Origin: Bacteroidota bacterium
GTDB taxonomy: Bacteria > Bacteroidota > Bacteroidia > Bacteroidales > Prolixibacteraceae
DNA length: 64,000 nt
Assembly: GCA_023251435.1 (NCBI GenBank)
Contig: JAHEYU010000021.1
Coordinates: forward strand, 1 to 64,000
Direction: 5' to 3'
Position numbers and translations under genes: made by a program. Below are positions 17,961 to 28,170 of this stretch, one piece after another (within the stretch, counting starts at the first letter, position 1; each line of letters starts with the position of its first letter). The notes beneath the pieces are model-generated. The model was not told the origin of the DNA. It saw nothing but the letters and a program-made list of their open reading frames with translations, and searched no databases.

Positions 17961-18914
17961 TTAGAACACTGCCTCCACAATTTTTCGGGTATTGTCAGAA
18001 ACACCGTAAGTGTAAATATGCAAACTCGGAACCTGATGTGCAACAAGGTCTTTTGATTGCTGAATTGCCCATTCCGTTCCCACCACTTTGGCATCGTCGT
18101 CGGTTTTACATTTGCCTAATTCTGTCGCCAGTTCCTGGGGAATATCGATGCTGAATAGCTTTGGCAAAACAGTCAACTGGTTTTTCAGATTGATTGGTTT
18201 GATGCCCGGAATGATCGGCACCTGAATGCCAATATCCCGGCATTTATCTACAAAATTGTAGTATTTCTGGTTGTCGAAAAACATTTGGGTCACAATGTAA
18301 TCGGCACCTGCGTCCACTTTTTGTTTCAGGTATTGCAGATCAATCCCGGCATTTGGTGCCTCAAAATGTTTCTCCGGATAGCCAGCCACCCCAATGCAAA
18401 AATCCATAGGATGTGTATTCTTTAGATCGGCTTCCAGGTATTTGCCATTCCGGAGATTTACAATTTGTTCGACCAATTGATTGGCATTCGAATGTCCGTT
18501 TGGATCAGGTCTGAAAACGTGTTCACCTTTGTTGCCATCGCCACGTAAAGCCAACACATTACTGATTCCCATGAAATTCAGGTCAATCAAAACATGTTCG
18601 GTTTCGCTTTTCGAAAAGCCACCGCATAAAATATGCGGAATCACGGGAATACCGTATTTGTGCTGAATACTGGCCGCAATTGCAACCGTTCCGGGGCGTT
18701 TGCGAACCGTGCGTTTTTCGATGCGTCCATCGGGCAATTCTATGTACATCATCTCATCGCGATGCGTAGTAATGTTGATGTACTTCGGATCAAAATCGAC
18801 CAGCGTTTCGATGGTTTTATATATTTTACTGGCATCGTTTCCTTTGAGCGGGGGCAACAACTCAAACGAAAAAACGGTTTTATTGCTTTGATTGATAATA
18901 TCAATAACTTTCAT
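17961..18914 (-). CDS. metF: methylenetetrahydrofolate reductase
   Basis: FSFELLPP, IPVIPHILCGG, ALRGD, GADYIVTQMFFDNQKYY, VPIIPGIKPI. Confidence 0.96.
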   Translation of the reverse strand: MKVIDIINQSNKTVFSFELLPPLKGNDASKIYKTIETLVDFDPKYINITTHRDEMMYIELPDGRIEKRTVRKRPGTVAIAASIQHKYGIPVIPHILCGGFSKSETEHVLIDLNFMGISNVLALRGDGNKGEHVFRPDPNGHSNANQLVEQIVNLRNGKYLEADLKNTHPMDFCIGVAGYPEKHFEAPNAGIDLQYLKQKVDAGADYIVTQMFFDNQKYYNFVDKCRDIGIQVPIIPGIKPINLKNQLTVLPKLFSIDIPQELATELGKCKTDDDAKVVGTEWAIQQSKDLVAHQVPSLHIYTYGVSDNTRKIVEAVF

Positions 18915-19802: not shown

Positions 19803-22800
19803 CTAAACTCCTTTATAATTCAAATTCGAAGGCATAAACTTTTCGATTATTTCAACGCTCACACCTTTACGGCGGGCATAATCTTCAACCTGGTCTTTAC
19901 CAATTTTCTCGAGACTGAAATATTTTGATTCAGGATGCACAAAGAATTCTCCACTCACCGAAGCTGTTGGGAACATCATAAAATGTTCGGTCAAAGTCAT
20001 TCCAATTTCATTAGCTTTCAGCATGTTGAACAGATTGGCCTTTTCGTGGTGCTCGGGACAGGCCGGATAGCCTATGGCTGGGCGGATTCCCTGGTAATCG
20101 ACATGAAACATTTCCTCCAAAGTCAGCTTTTCGTCAGGAACATAACCCCAGTATTCTTTGCGAACCTGTAGATGCAACAACTCGGCAAATGCTTCCGACA
20201 ATCGGTCGGCCAGAGATTCGAGCAGAATGGCATTGTAATCGTCGTGGTCGTCGTGGAATTTCTTCATCCATTTTTCGATGCCCACCCCGCCGGTTACGGC
20301 AAATGCGCCAAAATAATCGGTTTTACCGCTTTCAATTGGGGCGATAAAATCGGATAAACAATAGTTCGGCGAACCATGTTTTTTGGCTTCCTGCTGCCGA
20401 AGCTCATAAAAACGACCGGCTTCTTTCCTTCGGGTTTCGTCTTCGTAAACCACAATGTCGTCGCCATCGGCATTGGCGGGCCAGATTCCGAAGACACCGT
20501 TGGCCTGAACCATCTTCTCCGCTTCCATCCGATCGAGCATCCGATTGGCATCGGCATACAGTTTTCGGGCTTCTTCGCCCTGATGTTCGTCGTTCAGGAT
20601 ATCCGGAAATTTGCCTTTCAGCTCCCACACAAAGAAAAAGAAGGTCCAGTCGATAAATTTCCGGAGTTCCGAAATTGGGTAATCAATCAGTTGTTTGATG
20701 CCCACAAAATTGGGTTTATAAATCGGGGTATTGTCCCAGTCAATTTTCAGCTTATTGGCACGCGCTTCCTCAATTGACAGGTACTTTTTAGCCTTCTTCT
20801 GTCCGTGCAAATCGCGCACATTTTGATAGTCGTCACGAATTTCCTTCAGGAATTCCTGATTCCCGGAGAGCAGGTTCGAAACTACGCTCACTGCACGAGA
20901 TGCATCTTTGACATGAATTATCGCATTTTTATATTGCGGTGCAATTTTAACGGCAGCATGAATTTTCGAAGTGGTTGCTCCGCCAACCAGCAATGGCAGG
21001 TTCATACCCCGGCGTTCCATTTCGGTAGCCACATCCACCATAATTTCGAGCGACGGTGTAATCAGCCCGCTCAGACCAATGATGTCCACGTTTTCCGCAA
21101 TGGCCGTATCGAGGATTTTATCGGTCGGCACCATAACTCCCAAATCGATGACCCGGTAGTTGTTGCAGCCCAAAACCACGCCCACAATGTTTTTACCAAT
21201 GTCGTGCACGTCGCCTTTTACGGTAGCCATCAACACCACTTTTCGGTTGTCGGTGGTATCGAATTTGTCTTTATCGGCTTCGATGTACGGCAACAAATAA
21301 GCCACCGCTTTTTTCATCACGCGGGCCGATTTGATCACCTGCGGAAGGAACATTTTTCCGGTGCCAAACAAGTCGCCAACTACATTCATTCCGTCCATCA
21401 GCGGACCTTCGATGATGTTCAGAACAGGCGAGTATAGCGGCAGCGCTTCTGCCAGATCAATATCGATATAATCCGGCAAGCCTTTTACCAGCGCGTGTTC
21501 CAGCCGTTTTTCAACCGGAAGGTCGCGCCATTCGTCTTTTCGCTCTTCTTTGGCATCCTGTGCTTTTAAAGTCTGAGCGAATTCGAGCAACTCTTCGGTG
21601 GCATTCGGATTTTTATTCAGTACTAAATTCTCTACTTTTTCCAGAAAATCCTTCGGAATTTCATCGTAAATCTGCAACATTCCGGGATTCACAATACCCA
21701 TGTCGAGTCCGGCTTTTATGGCATGAAACAGGAAAACCGAATGGATGGCTTCGCGCACCTGATCGTTTCCGCGGAAACTGAATGACACATTGCTGATCCC
21801 GCCGCTGGTTTTGGCGTGTTTCAGATTTTTCTTGATCCAGCTAACCGCGTTGATAAAGTCAACCGCGTAATTCAGATGTTCCTCCATTCCGGTGCCGATG
21901 ATCAGGATGTTCGAATCGAAAATGATATCCTGTGGCGGAAAGTTGATCTCGTTGACAAGAATATTGTAGGCGCGTTGGCAGATTTCAATCCGTCGTTCGA
22001 ACGAATCGGCCTGACCGATTTCATCGAAAGCCATTACTACCACAGCCGCACCATACCGTTTCAGAAGTAGCGCTTGTTGGCGGAACACTGCTTCTCCTTC
22101 TTTCATGCTGATGGAATTCACAATCGCTTTGCCCTGAACACATTTCAGCCCTGCTTCAATCACTTCCCATTTTGACGAGTCGATCATCATCGGAACGCGG
22201 GCAATATCAGGTTCGGCCATCAGCAAATTCAGGAAAGTGACCATTTCTTTTTTGGCATCGAGCATGGCATCGTCCATATTGATGTCGATGACCTGCGCCC
22301 CTTCATCCACCTGATTGCGGGCAATGGCAATGGCTTCCTCATATTTTCCTTCGCGGATTAAACGGGCGAATTTACGCGAACCCGACACATTGCATCTTTC
22401 ACCAATATTCATAAACACCGACTCATGAGTCAATGTTACCGGTTCAAGTCCACTAAAGATCGTATGTTTATCCTTTTTCCTCCGGTGATGAGGTTTCGAT
22501 TTGGCTGCAATTTTGGCCAGTTCACGAATGTGATCGGGAGTTGTTCCACAGCAGCCACCAATGATATTTATAAATTTATTATCGAGAAAATCGCCGACCT
22601 GATGTGCCATTTCTGCAGGAGTTTCGTCGTATTCGCCAAATTGGTTGGGTAAACCGGCATTCGGATAGGCGCTGATGAAAAAGGATGATTTTTTCGAAAG
22701 TTCTTCCAGATACGGACGTAAATCACGGGCTCCCAGCGAGCAGTTCAGCCCGATTGAAAGCAGATCGATGTGTGAAACCGAAGTCAGGAAAGCCTCAACC

Positions 22801-23471
22801 GTTTGGCCTGAAAGAGTACGTCCGCTGGCATCGGTAATTGTTCCTGAAACCATCACCGGAAGCCGCATCCCGCGTTCTTCCAGTTCGTCCTCAATAGCAA
22901 AAAGTGCAGCTTTGGCATTCAGCGTATCGAAAATGGTTTCGACCAAAAGCAAATCGACTCCACCATCGAGCAAACCTTTCAACTGTTCACGATAGGATGC
23001 TTTTACCTCGTCAAAAGTTACCGAACGGAAACCCGGATCGTTAACATCTGGAGAAAGCGAAAGCGTTTTATTCATCGGACCGATTGCACCAGCCACATAG
23101 CGCGGTTTCTCCGGATTTTTTGCCGTGAACTCCGCGGCGACTTCAACAGCCAGCTTAGCCGATTGCAGGTTAAGCTGATACACCCACTCTTCCAGATGGT
23201 AATCGGCCTGCGAAATACTGGTTGAGTTGAACGTATTGGTTTCGATAATGTCGGCGCCTGCTTCCAAAAATTGCGCATGAATTTCGCGGATGACTTCAGG
23301 TTTAGTGATCGAAAGCAAGTCGTTGTTGCCTTTCAAATCGTACTGAAAATCAGTAAAAATAGTACCCCGGAAATCCTCTTCCGACAAGCGGTGTTTCTGA
23401 ATCATGGTTCCCATGGCGCCGTCGAGCACCAACACCCGCGATTCGAGATCGTGTTGTATATTGTATTTCAT
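19803..23471 (-). CDS. metH: B12-dependent methionine synthase (start set to MKYNIQHDL; track ORF starts at 23525)
   Basis: homocysteine-binding [11 protein letters not shown]...GGCCGT; pterin domain [16 protein letters not shown]; cobalamin site [22 protein letters not shown]; AdoMet activation domain [16 protein letters not shown]. Confidence 0.97.
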
Positions 23472-23474
23472 TAT

Positions 23475-23511
23475 AAGCCCCCTTCCTAACCTTCCCCCGT
23501 GAGGGGAAGGA
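23475..23511. repeat. palindromic repeat upstream of metH
   Basis: AGCCCCCTTCCTAACCTTCCCCCGTGAGGGGAAGGAA. Confidence 0.55.
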
Positions 23512-23573
23512 ACCGGATATTGCATTTTTAGTTTATATTTCTTTTTACTTAGTGTTCTTGGTGCCCTTTGTGG

Positions 23574-24389
23574 TTAAATGAGTTGCCTTAATTTCATTTT
23601 AAACTGCCCACGGATACCAATTTTATCGCAGCAAATAATTACTGCCGAGAGTATCTCAGGAAACTGCTCCGTTTGCTGTGTTACCTGCTGCACATCATCT
23701 GGCACCTGTACCAAATTACCAAACGTAGTTGCCAGCGCATCAGCCAAAGCGGTGTTTCGGCAAATAATCATAGTCGCATCGGTTTTGCCTAAACTCACCG
23801 ACGGACCAACTGTTCCGGCGGAAGTACAAACTCCCAGCGGCGATTCGGAAGCCTGAATTTCGATGCCAATCTTTTCCGACAAAGGTGAACTTCCGGCATA
23901 AACAGACATCAGCAAATATCGTTCAATTTTCAGGAAAATATCACCACCATTTTCAACCACCAATTCCTGAATTCCAAATTGTTGCATCAAATGTCTCCCA
24001 ACCATTTCTGAAAAAGCACCGGCCACGGAAGCCATCGGCCCCACTCCGGCACGATTGGCAGCTTCAGCCATGACCTTAACAATTTCGGGGGCATTCGGTT
24101 CTACCGGATGTGGTTCGAACGTCTTTCCAAAGACCGGATCTGTCAGCAAATATGCCTCCATTTCCGATCGCAACTGCACCACTTTTGAGTGGGCAACTTC
24201 CTTCATTTCTTCCCGGAACGAAGCCGGATCAACGCCAATCCACAAGTCCGTTTCCTTGTAATTCACCACAAACGACCGAAATCGTTGCTTTGAAAACTGG
24301 TTGCGATATGTGCGAGGTTCAAAGCCTCCCCCAACCCCTCCAAACGGAGGGGAGAAAGAACCAGCATTCGTAGATTTATCCTTAATCAT
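23574..24389 (-). CDS. UPF0280/COG2122 family protein
   Basis: FEPRTYRNQF...VNYKETDLWIGVD, PMASVAGAFSEMVG, VENGGDIFL, GVCTSAGTVGPSVS; N-terminal 15 or so aa encoded by repeat. Confidence 0.85.
   Translation of the reverse strand: MIKDKSTNAGSFSPPFGGVGGGFEPRTYRNQFSKQRFRSFVVNYKETDLWIGVDPASFREEMKEVAHSKVVQLRSEMEAYLLTDPVFGKTFEPHPVEPNAPEIVKVMAEAANRAGVGPMASVAGAFSEMVGRHLMQQFGIQELVVENGGDIFLKIERYLLMSVYAGSSPLSEKIGIEIQASESPLGVCTSAGTVGPSVSLGKTDATMIICRNTALADALATTFGNLVQVPDDVQQVTQQTEQFPEILSAVIICCDKIGIRGQFKMKLRQLI
24321..24358. repeat. palindromic repeat inside the 5' end of the UPF0280 CDS
   Basis: AAAGCCTCCCCCAACCCCTCCAAACGGAGGGGAGAAA, encodes FSPPFGGVGGGF. Confidence 0.6.
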
Positions 24390-24440: not shown

Positions 24441-24472
24441 GTCTCCCCGTTTGGGGAGATTTAGAGGGGTCC
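24441..24472. repeat. palindromic repeat abutting the NIL-ferredoxin stop codon
   Basis: GTCTCCCCGTTTGGGGAGATTTAGAGGGGT; same family as 26253..26281. Confidence 0.6.
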
Positions 24473-24473
24473 A

Positions 24474-24893
24474 TTATTCCCTAAAATCTATCTTAAACAA
24501 ATTCAGCGGACAAGCCGGAACGCAAAGTTCGCAAACAATACACTTTTCAGGATCGAATTGCAGTTCCCATTTTTCAGGATCCATTTGCAAAGCGCCTGCA
24601 AAACAAACCGCGGTGCAATTTCCACAACTGATACAGCGAATATGATCCCAGGTAATTTTCTTATTCAACGGCTCGCAACTCACCTGATTTGCTTTCAGAT
24701 AAGCGATTCCGTTTTTCAGGTTGGTAGTGGTTCCTTCCAGTTCCAGCACCAAACTTCCGGTCTTCCCCGGCCAAACTTCAGCACGAAGAATATTAATCCG
24801 AATGTCGAAATCTTTTACCAAATGATAGCTAAACGGCTGATCTCCACTTTGTGGCGGAAACTTCAGCACATATCTTTTTTTCTGCATTTTCAT
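24474..24893 (-). CDS. NIL domain + 2x[4Fe-4S] ferredoxin protein (start set to MKMQKKRYVLKFP; track ORF starts at 24992)
   Basis: CISCGNCTAVC and CIVCELCVPACP clusters preceded by a NIL domain. Confidence 0.9.
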   Translation of the reverse strand: MKMQKKRYVLKFPPQSGDQPFSYHLVKDFDIRINILRAEVWPGKTGSLVLELEGTTTNLKNGIAYLKANQVSCEPLNKKITWDHIRCISCGNCTAVCFAGALQMDPEKWELQFDPEKCIVCELCVPACPLNLFKIDFRE

Positions 24894-24900
24894 CTCAAGA

Positions 24901-24937
24901 AATTTACAATTTACTGATTTACAATTTACTATTGAAG
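24901..24937. repeat. low-complexity direct repeat
   Basis: AATTTACAATTTACTGATTTACAATTTACT; related to 26189..26218. Confidence 0.5.
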
Positions 24938-25032
24938 AAGTGCGGAGTGCATTAAGTTTCAAGTTCTTCTGACTTCGGTCTTTTCTGAACACTGCGACTG
25001 GCCACTGAACACTTTCTTCTGACTTCCATCTT

Positions 25033-26181
25033 TCATCTCTCTTTCAGTGATTTCAATGAGGTATTGGTCGGGAACATCTGAACCGGTTTGCTGATTTCGA
25101 ACTCACCGGCCAGAATCGATTGTTTCAGGATTTCAGCAATTTTACGGGCTTTGCTTAGGCTCGAAACCGGCGCTGTCCGAATCTTTTTCCCCTGAACTTC
25201 AATTTCTCCTGAACGCAATTCCGCATAAGTTACACGACCCAAAGCAGGAGCTCCTTCTACTCCGTAATCGCAAACCGTTGTTTCAATCTGCTCGTTCCTG
25301 ATGGAGACATTTTTTGCGATGTCGGCATTCAGCACGGGAATTGGGATTCCGATCCCCACGAATAAACTCACGCCGTATTTTTCGTAATAAGCTGCCTGCA
25401 AAAATTCCGACGACATTTCTTTCAAATTGCCCATCACGGCCAGCGTAGCCGAATTTCCTACCGGAACGCCGTATTCATTTTTCGGTTTCGAGGTGTTGAA
25501 CTGCGTTCCCGGCCAAACCACAAATCCTTGTGTTCCGCCGAGAAAAATTCGGGTTCCGATGCCAATAGTTTTCATTTCCGGGTCGTTCAGCAACGGACTC
25601 AGTTCTCCGGAAGTGGAATAGGTGGCATTGCGCATGTTGGGAAGCAAATTTCCCATGTACGTGTATTTCATTTGCGAAGTAGAATTCACCGCCACGGGAT
25701 AATTCTGATAGGCATTGCGCGGATTGAACAGAATCATTTCGTTCACCGTTTCCTTGTTGATGATGGTTTTGATGTGTTTCCGCGGGTAACAATCGGTACC
25801 TTTTCCCCAGGCTTCCAGTTCTACATCTTTGCCATCAACTAAGTCCTGAATCACATGTGCCCCGCCATATTTCGGATTCTCAGGATCGCAGGCCGTTGCG
25901 CCAATGTAGGTATCAACAGCAGCCAAACCTTCGTACGCAGGCACTCCGTTCAATCGTATTTTTTCCATCCGGATGGGTGGATTGGCGTGGCCAAAATTGA
26001 CAATCGCACCTGACGAGCACATGGCTCCAAAAGTAGCTGTGGTAACCACATCCACTTTTTCGGCTATTTCTTCAGGAGTAGCAGTTAAAGCCATTTGCGA
26101 AACTTCCTCAGCAGTCAGAACTACCGCTTCGCCCCGACGGATTTTTTCGTTGATTTCTTCGTATGTTTTTTGAATGCTCAT
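25033..26181 (-). CDS. homocysteine biosynthesis protein (DUF39/COG1900), no CBS domains
   Basis: VVTTATFGAMCSSGAIVNFGH, GGAHVIQDLVDG, GTDCYPRK, RIFLGGTQGFVVWPGTQF. Confidence 0.88.
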   Translation of the reverse strand: MSIQKTYEEINEKIRRGEAVVLTAEEVSQMALTATPEEIAEKVDVVTTATFGAMCSSGAIVNFGHANPPIRMEKIRLNGVPAYEGLAAVDTYIGATACDPENPKYGGAHVIQDLVDGKDVELEAWGKGTDCYPRKHIKTIINKETVNEMILFNPRNAYQNYPVAVNSTSQMKYTYMGNLLPNMRNATYSTSGELSPLLNDPEMKTIGIGTRIFLGGTQGFVVWPGTQFNTSKPKNEYGVPVGNSATLAVMGNLKEMSSEFLQAAYYEKYGVSLFVGIGIPIPVLNADIAKNVSIRNEQIETTVCDYGVEGAPALGRVTYAELRSGEIEVQGKKIRTAPVSSLSKARKIAEILKQSILAGEFEISKPVQMFPTNTSLKSLKER

Positions 26182-26252
26182 GAATATATTTACGATTTAA
26201 TGATTTACAATTTACTGGCAATGCCCAGAGTTTGTTTTATAGGGGATTTTTC

Positions 26253-26281
26253 AAGTCTCCCCTTTGGGGAGATTTAGTGGG
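26253..26281. repeat. palindromic repeat between riboswitch and DUF39 gene
   Basis: AAGTCTCCCCTTTGGGGAGATTTAGTGGG. Confidence 0.6.
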
Positions 26282-26359
26282 ACTTTTTTAGCACATGCAC
26301 ATATTAGAAAAATACATGAAACTAAGGAAGTAATGATTTGAGTGTTTCTTCATTTTCTT

Positions 26360-26466
26360 GTTTAAATTATAATTCCGTTTCCGGCCGGGTATTGGCACCT
26401 TTTCTGTTTCAGCTGGTTGCCAGAGTTTCGCTGAGCCCGATCTCTCCGCTCTTCTTTATAATCAAA
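26360..26466 (-). ncRNA. SAM-I (S-box) riboswitch
   Basis: minus strand: GATTATAAAGAAGAGCGGAGAGATCGGGCTCAGCGAAACTCTGGCAACCAGCTGAAACAGAAAAGGTGCCAATACCCGGCC...TTATAAT; P1 ATTATAA/TTATAAT, P3 core GGCAACC, AAGGTGCcAAT. Confidence 0.9.
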
Positions 26467-26501
26467 CAATCAGTTTGTGCGAGGATTATTTGATAATGAG
26501 G

Positions 26502-26533
26502 CAAAAATAAGCTCAAAAAACCGATTTGGCAAA
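26502..26533 (-). promoter_or_regulatory. Bacteroidota-type promoter for riboswitch transcript
   Basis: minus strand TTTG-N20-TATTTTTG (TTTG / TAnnTTTG). Confidence 0.5.
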
Positions 26534-26694
26534 CAAAACCTGATTTTGAGTGAGGAGTTTTAGTAAAAGTTGATGTTTTAATTACGAATTGCAATCTATC
26601 TTTACTTATTATTACATATAAATGCAGGTTCTCCTGTGTAGTCCGTCCTTTCATCAATAATTTTTACATTTGCAGCATCAAAAAATCGAAAGTC

Positions 26695-28170
26695 ATGATT
26701 CAGGAAATACAAATTTACAACACACTTACCCGCAAGAAAGAAGTTTTTGAACCGCTGGTTCCCGGCAAGGTTGGGTTGTACGTTTGTGGGCCTACCGTTT
26801 ATGGCCCGCCACATTTGGGCCATGCCCGCTCGGCCATTAGTTTCGATTTGGTGTTTCGTTTCCTGAAACAGATTGGCTACAAAGTTCGCTATGTGCGCAA
26901 CATCACCGATGTGGGCCATTTGGTGGCCGATGCCGATGAGGGCGAAGACAAAATTGCCCAGCAAGCCAAACTTGACGAGCTGGAACCGATGGAGGTGGTG
27001 CAGAAATATACCAACATGTATCATGAGGCGATGGCCATGCTTAACCTCGAATCGCCCAGCATTGAGCCACGCGCTTCGGGCCATATTATTGAACAGATTG
27101 AAGAAGTGAAGAAAATATTGAGCTCAGGATATGCTTATGAAAGCAATGGATCGGTGTATTTCGATGTGGAAAAATTTGCTTCTGAAAATGAATACGGAAA
27201 ACTGTCGGGCCGGAAAATTGAAGATTTGCTTTGCAATACCCGCACTTTAGATGGACAGGACGAAAAACGCTCCGGACTGGATTTTGCCATCTGGAAAAAA
27301 GCTTCGCCCGAACACATTATGCGGTGGCCTTCGCCCTGGAGCGACGGATTTCCGGGCTGGCACATGGAATGTACGGCCATGAGTTGCAAATACCTGGGCG
27401 AAACATTCGACATTCACGGCGGCGGAATGGATTTGACGTTTCCGCACCACGAAGCAGAAATGGCACAGGCACAGGCAGCCCACGGAAAACCTGCCGTTCG
27501 CTACTGGATGCACAATAACATGATTACTCTGAACGGGCAGAAAATGGGCAAATCGCTTGGAAACGCCATTTCGCTGGAACAGTTTTTCAATGGCGATCAC
27601 CCTTTGCTCGAAATGGCCTACAGCCCAATGACCATACGTTTTTTCATGTTACAAGCACACTACCGCAGCACACTCGATTTCTCGAACGAAGCACTTCAGG
27701 CCTCGGAAAAAGGACTGGAACGTCTGATGAAAGCAGTTGCTAAAATTGAAACCTTACCTGTTTCTACTGTTTCATCAGTAAATATTGCTGAATTATCGGC
27801 CAATTGTTATACCGCTATGGCCGACGATATGAACAGCCCGATTGCCATGAGTTATTTATTTGAAGGGGTAAAGATCATTAACTCGGTAGCCGATGGAAAA
27901 TCAACAATTACTTCTGTAGATCGTGAAGCCTTAAAAATGCTTTTCAATGCTTTTGTGTTCGATATCTTTGGGTTGAAAGCAGAAGGTCAGGTTGATTCAG
28001 GAAACAGCGAAGTGCTGAACGAAGTAGTCGGTTTACTGATGAAACTTCGCGCTGAAGCCAAAGCCAACAAAGATTGGGCAACTTCGGATAAAATCCGCAA
28101 CGAACTTGCCGCAATTGGCTTCGACATTAAAGATGGAAAAGACGGAGTGAGCTGGGAGTTGAAGAAGTAG
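26695..28170 (+). CDS. cysS: cysteinyl-tRNA synthetase
   Basis: [44 protein letters not shown]. Confidence 0.97.

Follow-up and report, generated by a model that had tools for sequence, protein, structure and literature searches.

We studied a stretch of 64,000 nucleotides, which we call the window throughout, and in particular a locus on its minus strand at which five co-directional genes stand behind a SAM-I (S-box) riboswitch aptamer. Reading away from the aptamer, these genes encode a DUF39 protein (COG1900, HcyBio; 25033..26181, 382 residues, PF01837 at 496 bits), a NIL-domain 4Fe-4S ferredoxin (24474..24992; PF09383 and PF00037), a UPF0280/COG2122 protein (23574..24389; NCBIfam PRK04334 at 266.5 bits, just under its cut-off of 271), the B12-dependent methionine synthase MetH (19803..23525; TIGR02082 at 1739.6 bits) and the methylenetetrahydrofolate reductase MetF (17961..18914; PF02219 at 225 bits). 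The genes from DUF39 to metF are a coherent homocysteine-to-methionine cluster, presumably carried on a single transcript. The listed open reading frames of UPF0280 and MetH open with repeat-like extensions, and the real starts of both are probably internal; judging from the positions of its methionines, the NIL-ferredoxin probably starts at an ATG at about 24887-24893.

The first-pass annotation of this DNA had described the DUF39 module as uncharacterised. That description does not hold, since PF01837 is listed in Pfam as 'Homocysteine biosynthesis enzyme, sulfur-incorporation', and since genetics in Desulfovibrio and Methanosarcina has shown that DUF39, the NIL/ferredoxin protein and COG2122 are needed for homocysteine synthesis (PMC5764234, PMC12068725). 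The window holds the same set of three as this L-aspartate semialdehyde sulfurtransferase pathway (PMC5764234, PMC12068725), together with both key cysteines: the Methanosarcina enzyme has Cys54 and Cys131 (PMC12068725), to which Cys55 and Cys131 of the window protein correspond in position. The two differ in that archaeal DUF39 carries a CBS domain that permits control by SAM (PMC12068725), whereas the window protein has none; for the latter, SAM sensing apparently takes place in the mRNA leader and not on the protein. The source genome also retains the metY/metA route, with metY (TIGR01326, 656.8 bits) and metA/HTS (PF04204, 457.4 bits) on contig C88, which rules out DUF39 as the only route to homocysteine; we found no genuine metX in that genome. 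In one relative, the DUF39 gene lies in two overlapping frames (L126/L127, G020:C44), by frameshift or assembly error.

The aptamer itself occupies 26364..26464 on the minus strand. When the whole window was searched with cmscan, RF00162 matched 26464..26364 with a score of 63.2 bits, against a gathering threshold of 44.4 (E 2.5e-12), and the match spans the full model from 1 to 108 without truncation. It is the sole match above the gathering threshold in the window, and the only copy of RF00162 in the 5.7 Mb genome. The first-pass annotation had proposed an S-box riboswitch here, naming a covariance-model score above the gathering cutoff as its check, and the proposal is borne out: the core letters GGCAACC and AAGGTGCCAAT and the closing stem ATTATAA/TTATAAT that it cited are found in the aptamer, and of the span 26360-26466 that it gave, the start at 26360 overshoots the end of the model by 4 nt. 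The L2/J3-4 pseudoknot, which is absent from the RF00162 model and hence unscored there, provides further evidence. Its strands read CGGG/CCCG in the window, and they are complementary in 85 of 116 related aptamers, compared with a mean of 30 and a maximum of 44 over 1000 reshufflings of partners; the pair sets among relatives are TAGG/CCTA, CAGG/CCTG and CGGG/CCCG. In the cmscan alignment, examined by eye, the SAM-contacting core (J1/2 and the P3 internal loop) consists of consensus letters; that is, the core is unchanged, unlike that of the spermidine-variant aptamer (PMC10853860). The window aptamer is a plain, ordinary member of SAM-I and a predicted SAM sensor. It heads a cluster that includes metH and metF, and the tie to methionine/SAM homeostasis drawn by the first-pass annotation is supported as well.

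The same annotation had placed a promoter, TTTG-N20-TATTTTTG, just upstream. A Bacteroidota-type promoter of this form lies at 26502..26533 on the minus strand (26533 to 26502 in the direction of reading), ending 37 nt 5' of the aptamer. Within the window the pattern by itself is no commoner than chance would give, with 3 matches against 2.24 expected, although its placement is supported by relatives: the -7 element is held 45-47 nt before the aptamer in close relatives, and 73 out of 123 leaders, where 6 are expected, carry TAnnTTTG at a distance of 25-80 nt upstream.

Aptamers of this class are common in the group. S-boxes in Bacteroidetes/Chlorobi had been noted by 2007 (PMC2211319), and we find SAM-I in 303 of 397 genomes of the class; the aptamer alone is therefore ordinary. 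Of the 23 genomes in the genus, 11 carry both PF01837 and RF00162 and 12 carry neither; some of these 12 are incomplete assemblies. Elsewhere in the family the aptamer sometimes heads an aspartokinase-metY-metA operon instead (G028, G033). In Bacteroidales many DUF39 genes lack a riboswitch, and the methionine leader motif described below is largely absent before these, with one possible case (L036). Outside Bacteroidota, 11 further loci in Firmicutes and Nitrospirota have SAM-I upstream of DUF39, and T-boxes lie directly upstream of DUF39 at two loci, on an Actinomycetota contig and a Gracilibacteraceae contig (L062, L063). Several lineages thus tie DUF39 to control at the RNA level, of a kind that fits methionine/SAM supply.

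What makes the locus unusual is a leader ORF that lies behind the aptamer and ahead of DUF39 and that the first-pass annotation missed. This ORF of 21 codons, MKKHSNHYFLSFMYFSNMCMC followed by its stop, lies at 26288..26353 on the minus strand; its ATG starts 10 nt after the P1 helix of the aptamer, and its closing codons are Met-Cys-Met-Cys. All DUF39 leaders of the family that could be read, with the single exception of L091, have an ORF with an ATG start directly after the aptamer; in L091 the start codon of DUF39 itself occupies the position of the leader ORF. Among 10 close relatives the ORF begins 7-11 nt after the aptamer, its lengths differ by whole codons, and the encoded peptides include MKPLSILHLLSFMYFSNGCMC, MKRVKIQANSLFLLSFMHFSNSCMR and MKRQLHKLFFISYMHGTNMCMKKRS. 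Identity among close relatives is 0.76 over the leader ORF, 0.40 over the stretch behind it and 0.87 over the start of DUF39. When ten sequences of the same length are compared, 61% of the single-base codon differences are synonymous in the frame of the ORF, compared with 23% and 18% in the other two frames, and the variable columns number 13, 5 and 16 at the first, second and third codon positions. Across 18 leader peptides, Met20 is invariant and Met13 and Asn17 are nearly so, giving a C-terminal consensus for the family of M-[YH]-[FG]-[SA]-N-x-C-M-[RC], which abuts the stop codon or shortly precedes it; no NCBIfam family matched the peptides. Judged by these coding-type substitutions, and by the fixed spacing and the excess of methionine motifs, the leader ORF is conserved as a protein in the family.

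The excess of methionine motifs is best seen in the order as a whole. We gathered 93 SAM-I leaders from Bacteroidales, a sample that is partly hand-picked and phylogenetically uneven, and the gene start of 85 of these lies over 60 nt downstream. A leader ORF was counted if it had 8-59 codons and an ATG 5-17 nt after the aptamer, and the null expectation was drawn from 500 dinucleotide shuffles. By this measure a leader ORF is present in 67 of the 85 leaders and not in the remaining 18, whereas the shuffles give a mean of 11.7 and a maximum of 23. Met-x-Met or Met-Met occurs near the end of the ORF in 36 of the 85, against a shuffle mean of 0.08 and a maximum of 2, and methionine accounts for 16.7% of the residues at the ends of the ORFs, compared with 2.0% in shuffles. 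When one leader is taken per family, the ORF is found in 29 of 42 and the methionine motif in 15. Outside the family of the source genome the peptide ends vary widely (MPLMPMSM, MDMRCMR, MPMCMR and MGMH, for example), and spaced methionine is their main common trait. In seven leaders, including that of the DUF39 gene L091, the gene's own ATG lies 11-20 nt after the aptamer. Since these genes start where other leaders have their ORF, the P1-proximal ATG appears, from its placement, to be the regulated start, which would open a leader peptide or an enzyme depending on the leader. Beyond the order but within the class, many aptamers lie 35-150 nt before a gene with no leader ORF.

Individual leaders show other codon choices. 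An aspartokinase leader peptide, MITMTTITRTSISML, starts 16 nt after a SAM-I aptamer (L106) and contains Thr, Ile and Met codons, a mixture that would suit the branch point at aspartokinase and is reminiscent of the thr leader. Two possible polycysteine leader ORFs lie downstream of aptamers, one ending in HMMCCCCCCMPFGA before a metY-like gene (L145) and one ending in GMRCCC (L156).

A methionine-rich leader ORF is also found where there is no riboswitch. On contig C88 of the source genome (G000), the aspartokinase-metY-metA operon has no RF00162 match, and it is preceded, at about 214.48-214.58 kb, by a leader ORF encoding MNHSAKNSVSGISQFMGCNDSMMSSMPMIMR and conserved in the genus and the family (L256, L273). 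Its TAG stop runs into a hairpin, AGCCTTC..GAAGGC. In 16 sequences, 93.5% of the cells of this hairpin pair and 9 of its 14 pairs show changes on both sides, which none of 500 shuffles reaches. The exact hairpin motif occurs once in the genome, at this operon, and its pattern is found in 5 of 296 genomes of the order; four of the five belong to the same family, and so the exact form is mostly a family-level feature. No Rfam family fits the aspartokinase leaders, and of the structures of a leader attenuator we find only a part at this operon, namely one hairpin. This leader supports the view that methionine leader ORFs are regulatory elements independent of the riboswitch.

The 106 nt between the leader ORF and DUF39 (26182..26287, minus strand) are an untranslated stretch of low conservation. 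No terminator-like site occurs on the minus strand in 26100..26700, and we therefore rejected an intrinsic terminator, that is, a hairpin with a U-run before the gene, as the expression platform. We found no conserved alternative structures after the ORF among the DUF39 leaders, where this stretch has the 0.40 identity given above, and these leaders do not have the post-stop hairpin of the aspartokinase-metY-metA operon. An excess of C over G, of the kind seen at Rho sites, proved weak and inconsistent. The stretch also holds a palindrome, CTCCCCAAAGGGGAG (26271..26257), which we rejected as a regulator given that its surroundings are not conserved and that a second copy lies at 24443. The form CTCCCC..GGGGAG occurs twice in intergenic DNA (24443-24458 and 26257-26271) where none is expected by chance, and it looks like a dispersed repeat.

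How, then, might the aptamer and the ORF act together? We hold it somewhat better than an even chance that the initiation of translation at the first ATG beyond P1, which here opens the leader ORF, serves as the platform of this SAM-I switch, that the Met and Cys codons of the ORF provide a second input, and that both are coupled to DUF39. When SAM is high, P1 would stay closed at a distance of 10 nt from the leader ATG, a geometry in which ribosomes would fail to load. When SAM is low, the leader ORF would be translated as far as its closing Met-Cys-Met-Cys codons, and poorly charged Met or Cys tRNAs would lengthen the stay of the ribosome at the end of the ORF. A ribosome in that position may keep the transcript going or accessible, and so turn on DUF39, the NIL-ferredoxin, UPF0280, metH and metF. 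The coupling could be Rho-dependent attenuation or translational coupling over the 106 nt, and we prefer the former because no terminator was found. Each of these steps, from SAM binding through ORF translation and tRNA sensing to downstream coupling, is one that we infer. The main gap in a reading by attenuation is the lack, in the DUF39 leaders, of the hairpin that follows the stop in the aspartokinase-metY-metA operon; the logic of classical operons is therefore not simply transferable to them.

The locus could also be read as an ordinary SAM-I riboswitch whose usual platform controls DUF39, with the leader ORF acting as a bystander or passive relay, so that neither its peptide nor its codons matter. 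The frequent placement of Bacteroidia SAM-I switches directly before a gene start accords with such an arrangement, as does L091, which indicates that the system can evidently dispense with the leader ORF. Yet neither the coding-type conservation of the ORF nor the excess of methionine motifs (36 against 0.08) is expected of a passive relay, and we consider this account doubtful. Less probable again, and in our view unlikely, is that M-[YH]-[FG]-[SA]-N-x-C-M-[RC] acts as a nascent-chain arrest peptide, stalling the ribosome perhaps upon SAM or methionine rather than by codon-by-codon sensing of tRNA. The sensing of tRNA alone would not need conserved residues other than Met and Cys, such as Asn17, which leaves room for an arrest peptide, and both the near-fixed residues of the 18 peptides and the place of the motif at or shortly before the stop codon fit that role; the peptide ends outside the family, however, differ so widely that spaced methionine is mainly what they share. 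It is highly improbable that the stretch is conserved as an RNA structure or a protein-binding site and only resembles an ORF: a short hairpin, CATGTAC/GTGCATG, is possible within the ORF, but only 1 of its 8 predicted pairs changes on both sides, which is weak support for structure as the source of the conservation, and the length differences in multiples of three and the frame-specific synonymous bias both speak against it.

Returning to initiation at the leader ATG with a second input from its codons, the arrangement can be compared with several known systems. With SAM-I (RF00162) as generally described it shares the aptamer sequence, the structure, the pseudoknot and the place before methionine-pathway genes; it differs in that no intrinsic terminator was found at the locus and in that the start codon adjacent to P1 is that of a conserved leader ORF. 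The trp, his and thr leaders are ribosome-mediated attenuators with regulatory codons for the amino acid of their pathway. The cysS uORF of Rhodobacterales, uORFC-8-2, is likewise a short ORF with regulatory codons before a gene (PMC8632094). All of these codon attenuators resemble our case in having a short ORF before the gene with codons for the pathway's amino acid, but here a SAM aptamer precedes the ORF, and no conserved hairpin or terminator follows it in the DUF39 leaders. The closest published arrangement that we found is the metA SAM-II riboswitch of Sinorhizobium meliloti, which has an upstream AUG1 in frame with the distal AUG2 from which the gene is translated, and a terminator between them (PMC9373788). 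That system shares with ours a SAM riboswitch with an upstream start codon, whereas its aptamer class and layout are different and no separate methionine-rich leader peptide is described there. Tandem riboswitches acting as two-input gates (PMC9481103) likewise place two RNA-level sensors in one leader; in our case it is a leader ORF, not an aptamer, that is proposed as the second.

We found no description of Bacteroidetes leader peptides with riboswitches in the open-access literature that we searched. As no paper describing them was found there, and as they have no Rfam or NCBIfam match, such leader ORFs have apparently not been catalogued in Bacteroidales, and their novelty is provisional. 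More broadly, we propose tentatively, and at slightly less than even chances, that methionine leader-peptide attenuators form a widespread and so far undescribed class in Bacteroidales, and that many of them sit directly beneath a SAM-I aptamer. One leader would then sense free SAM as well as how fully Met (or Cys) tRNA is charged, the riboswitch determining whether the leader peptide is translated. The sequences suggest that Bacteroidales combine a SAM sensor and a leader peptide with methionine codons. If this is true, the SAM aptamer and the Met-codon leader ORF together form a two-input RNA device that reads the end product of the pathway in two chemical forms, and such a device would explain how these SAM-I switches of Bacteroidota work free of terminators.
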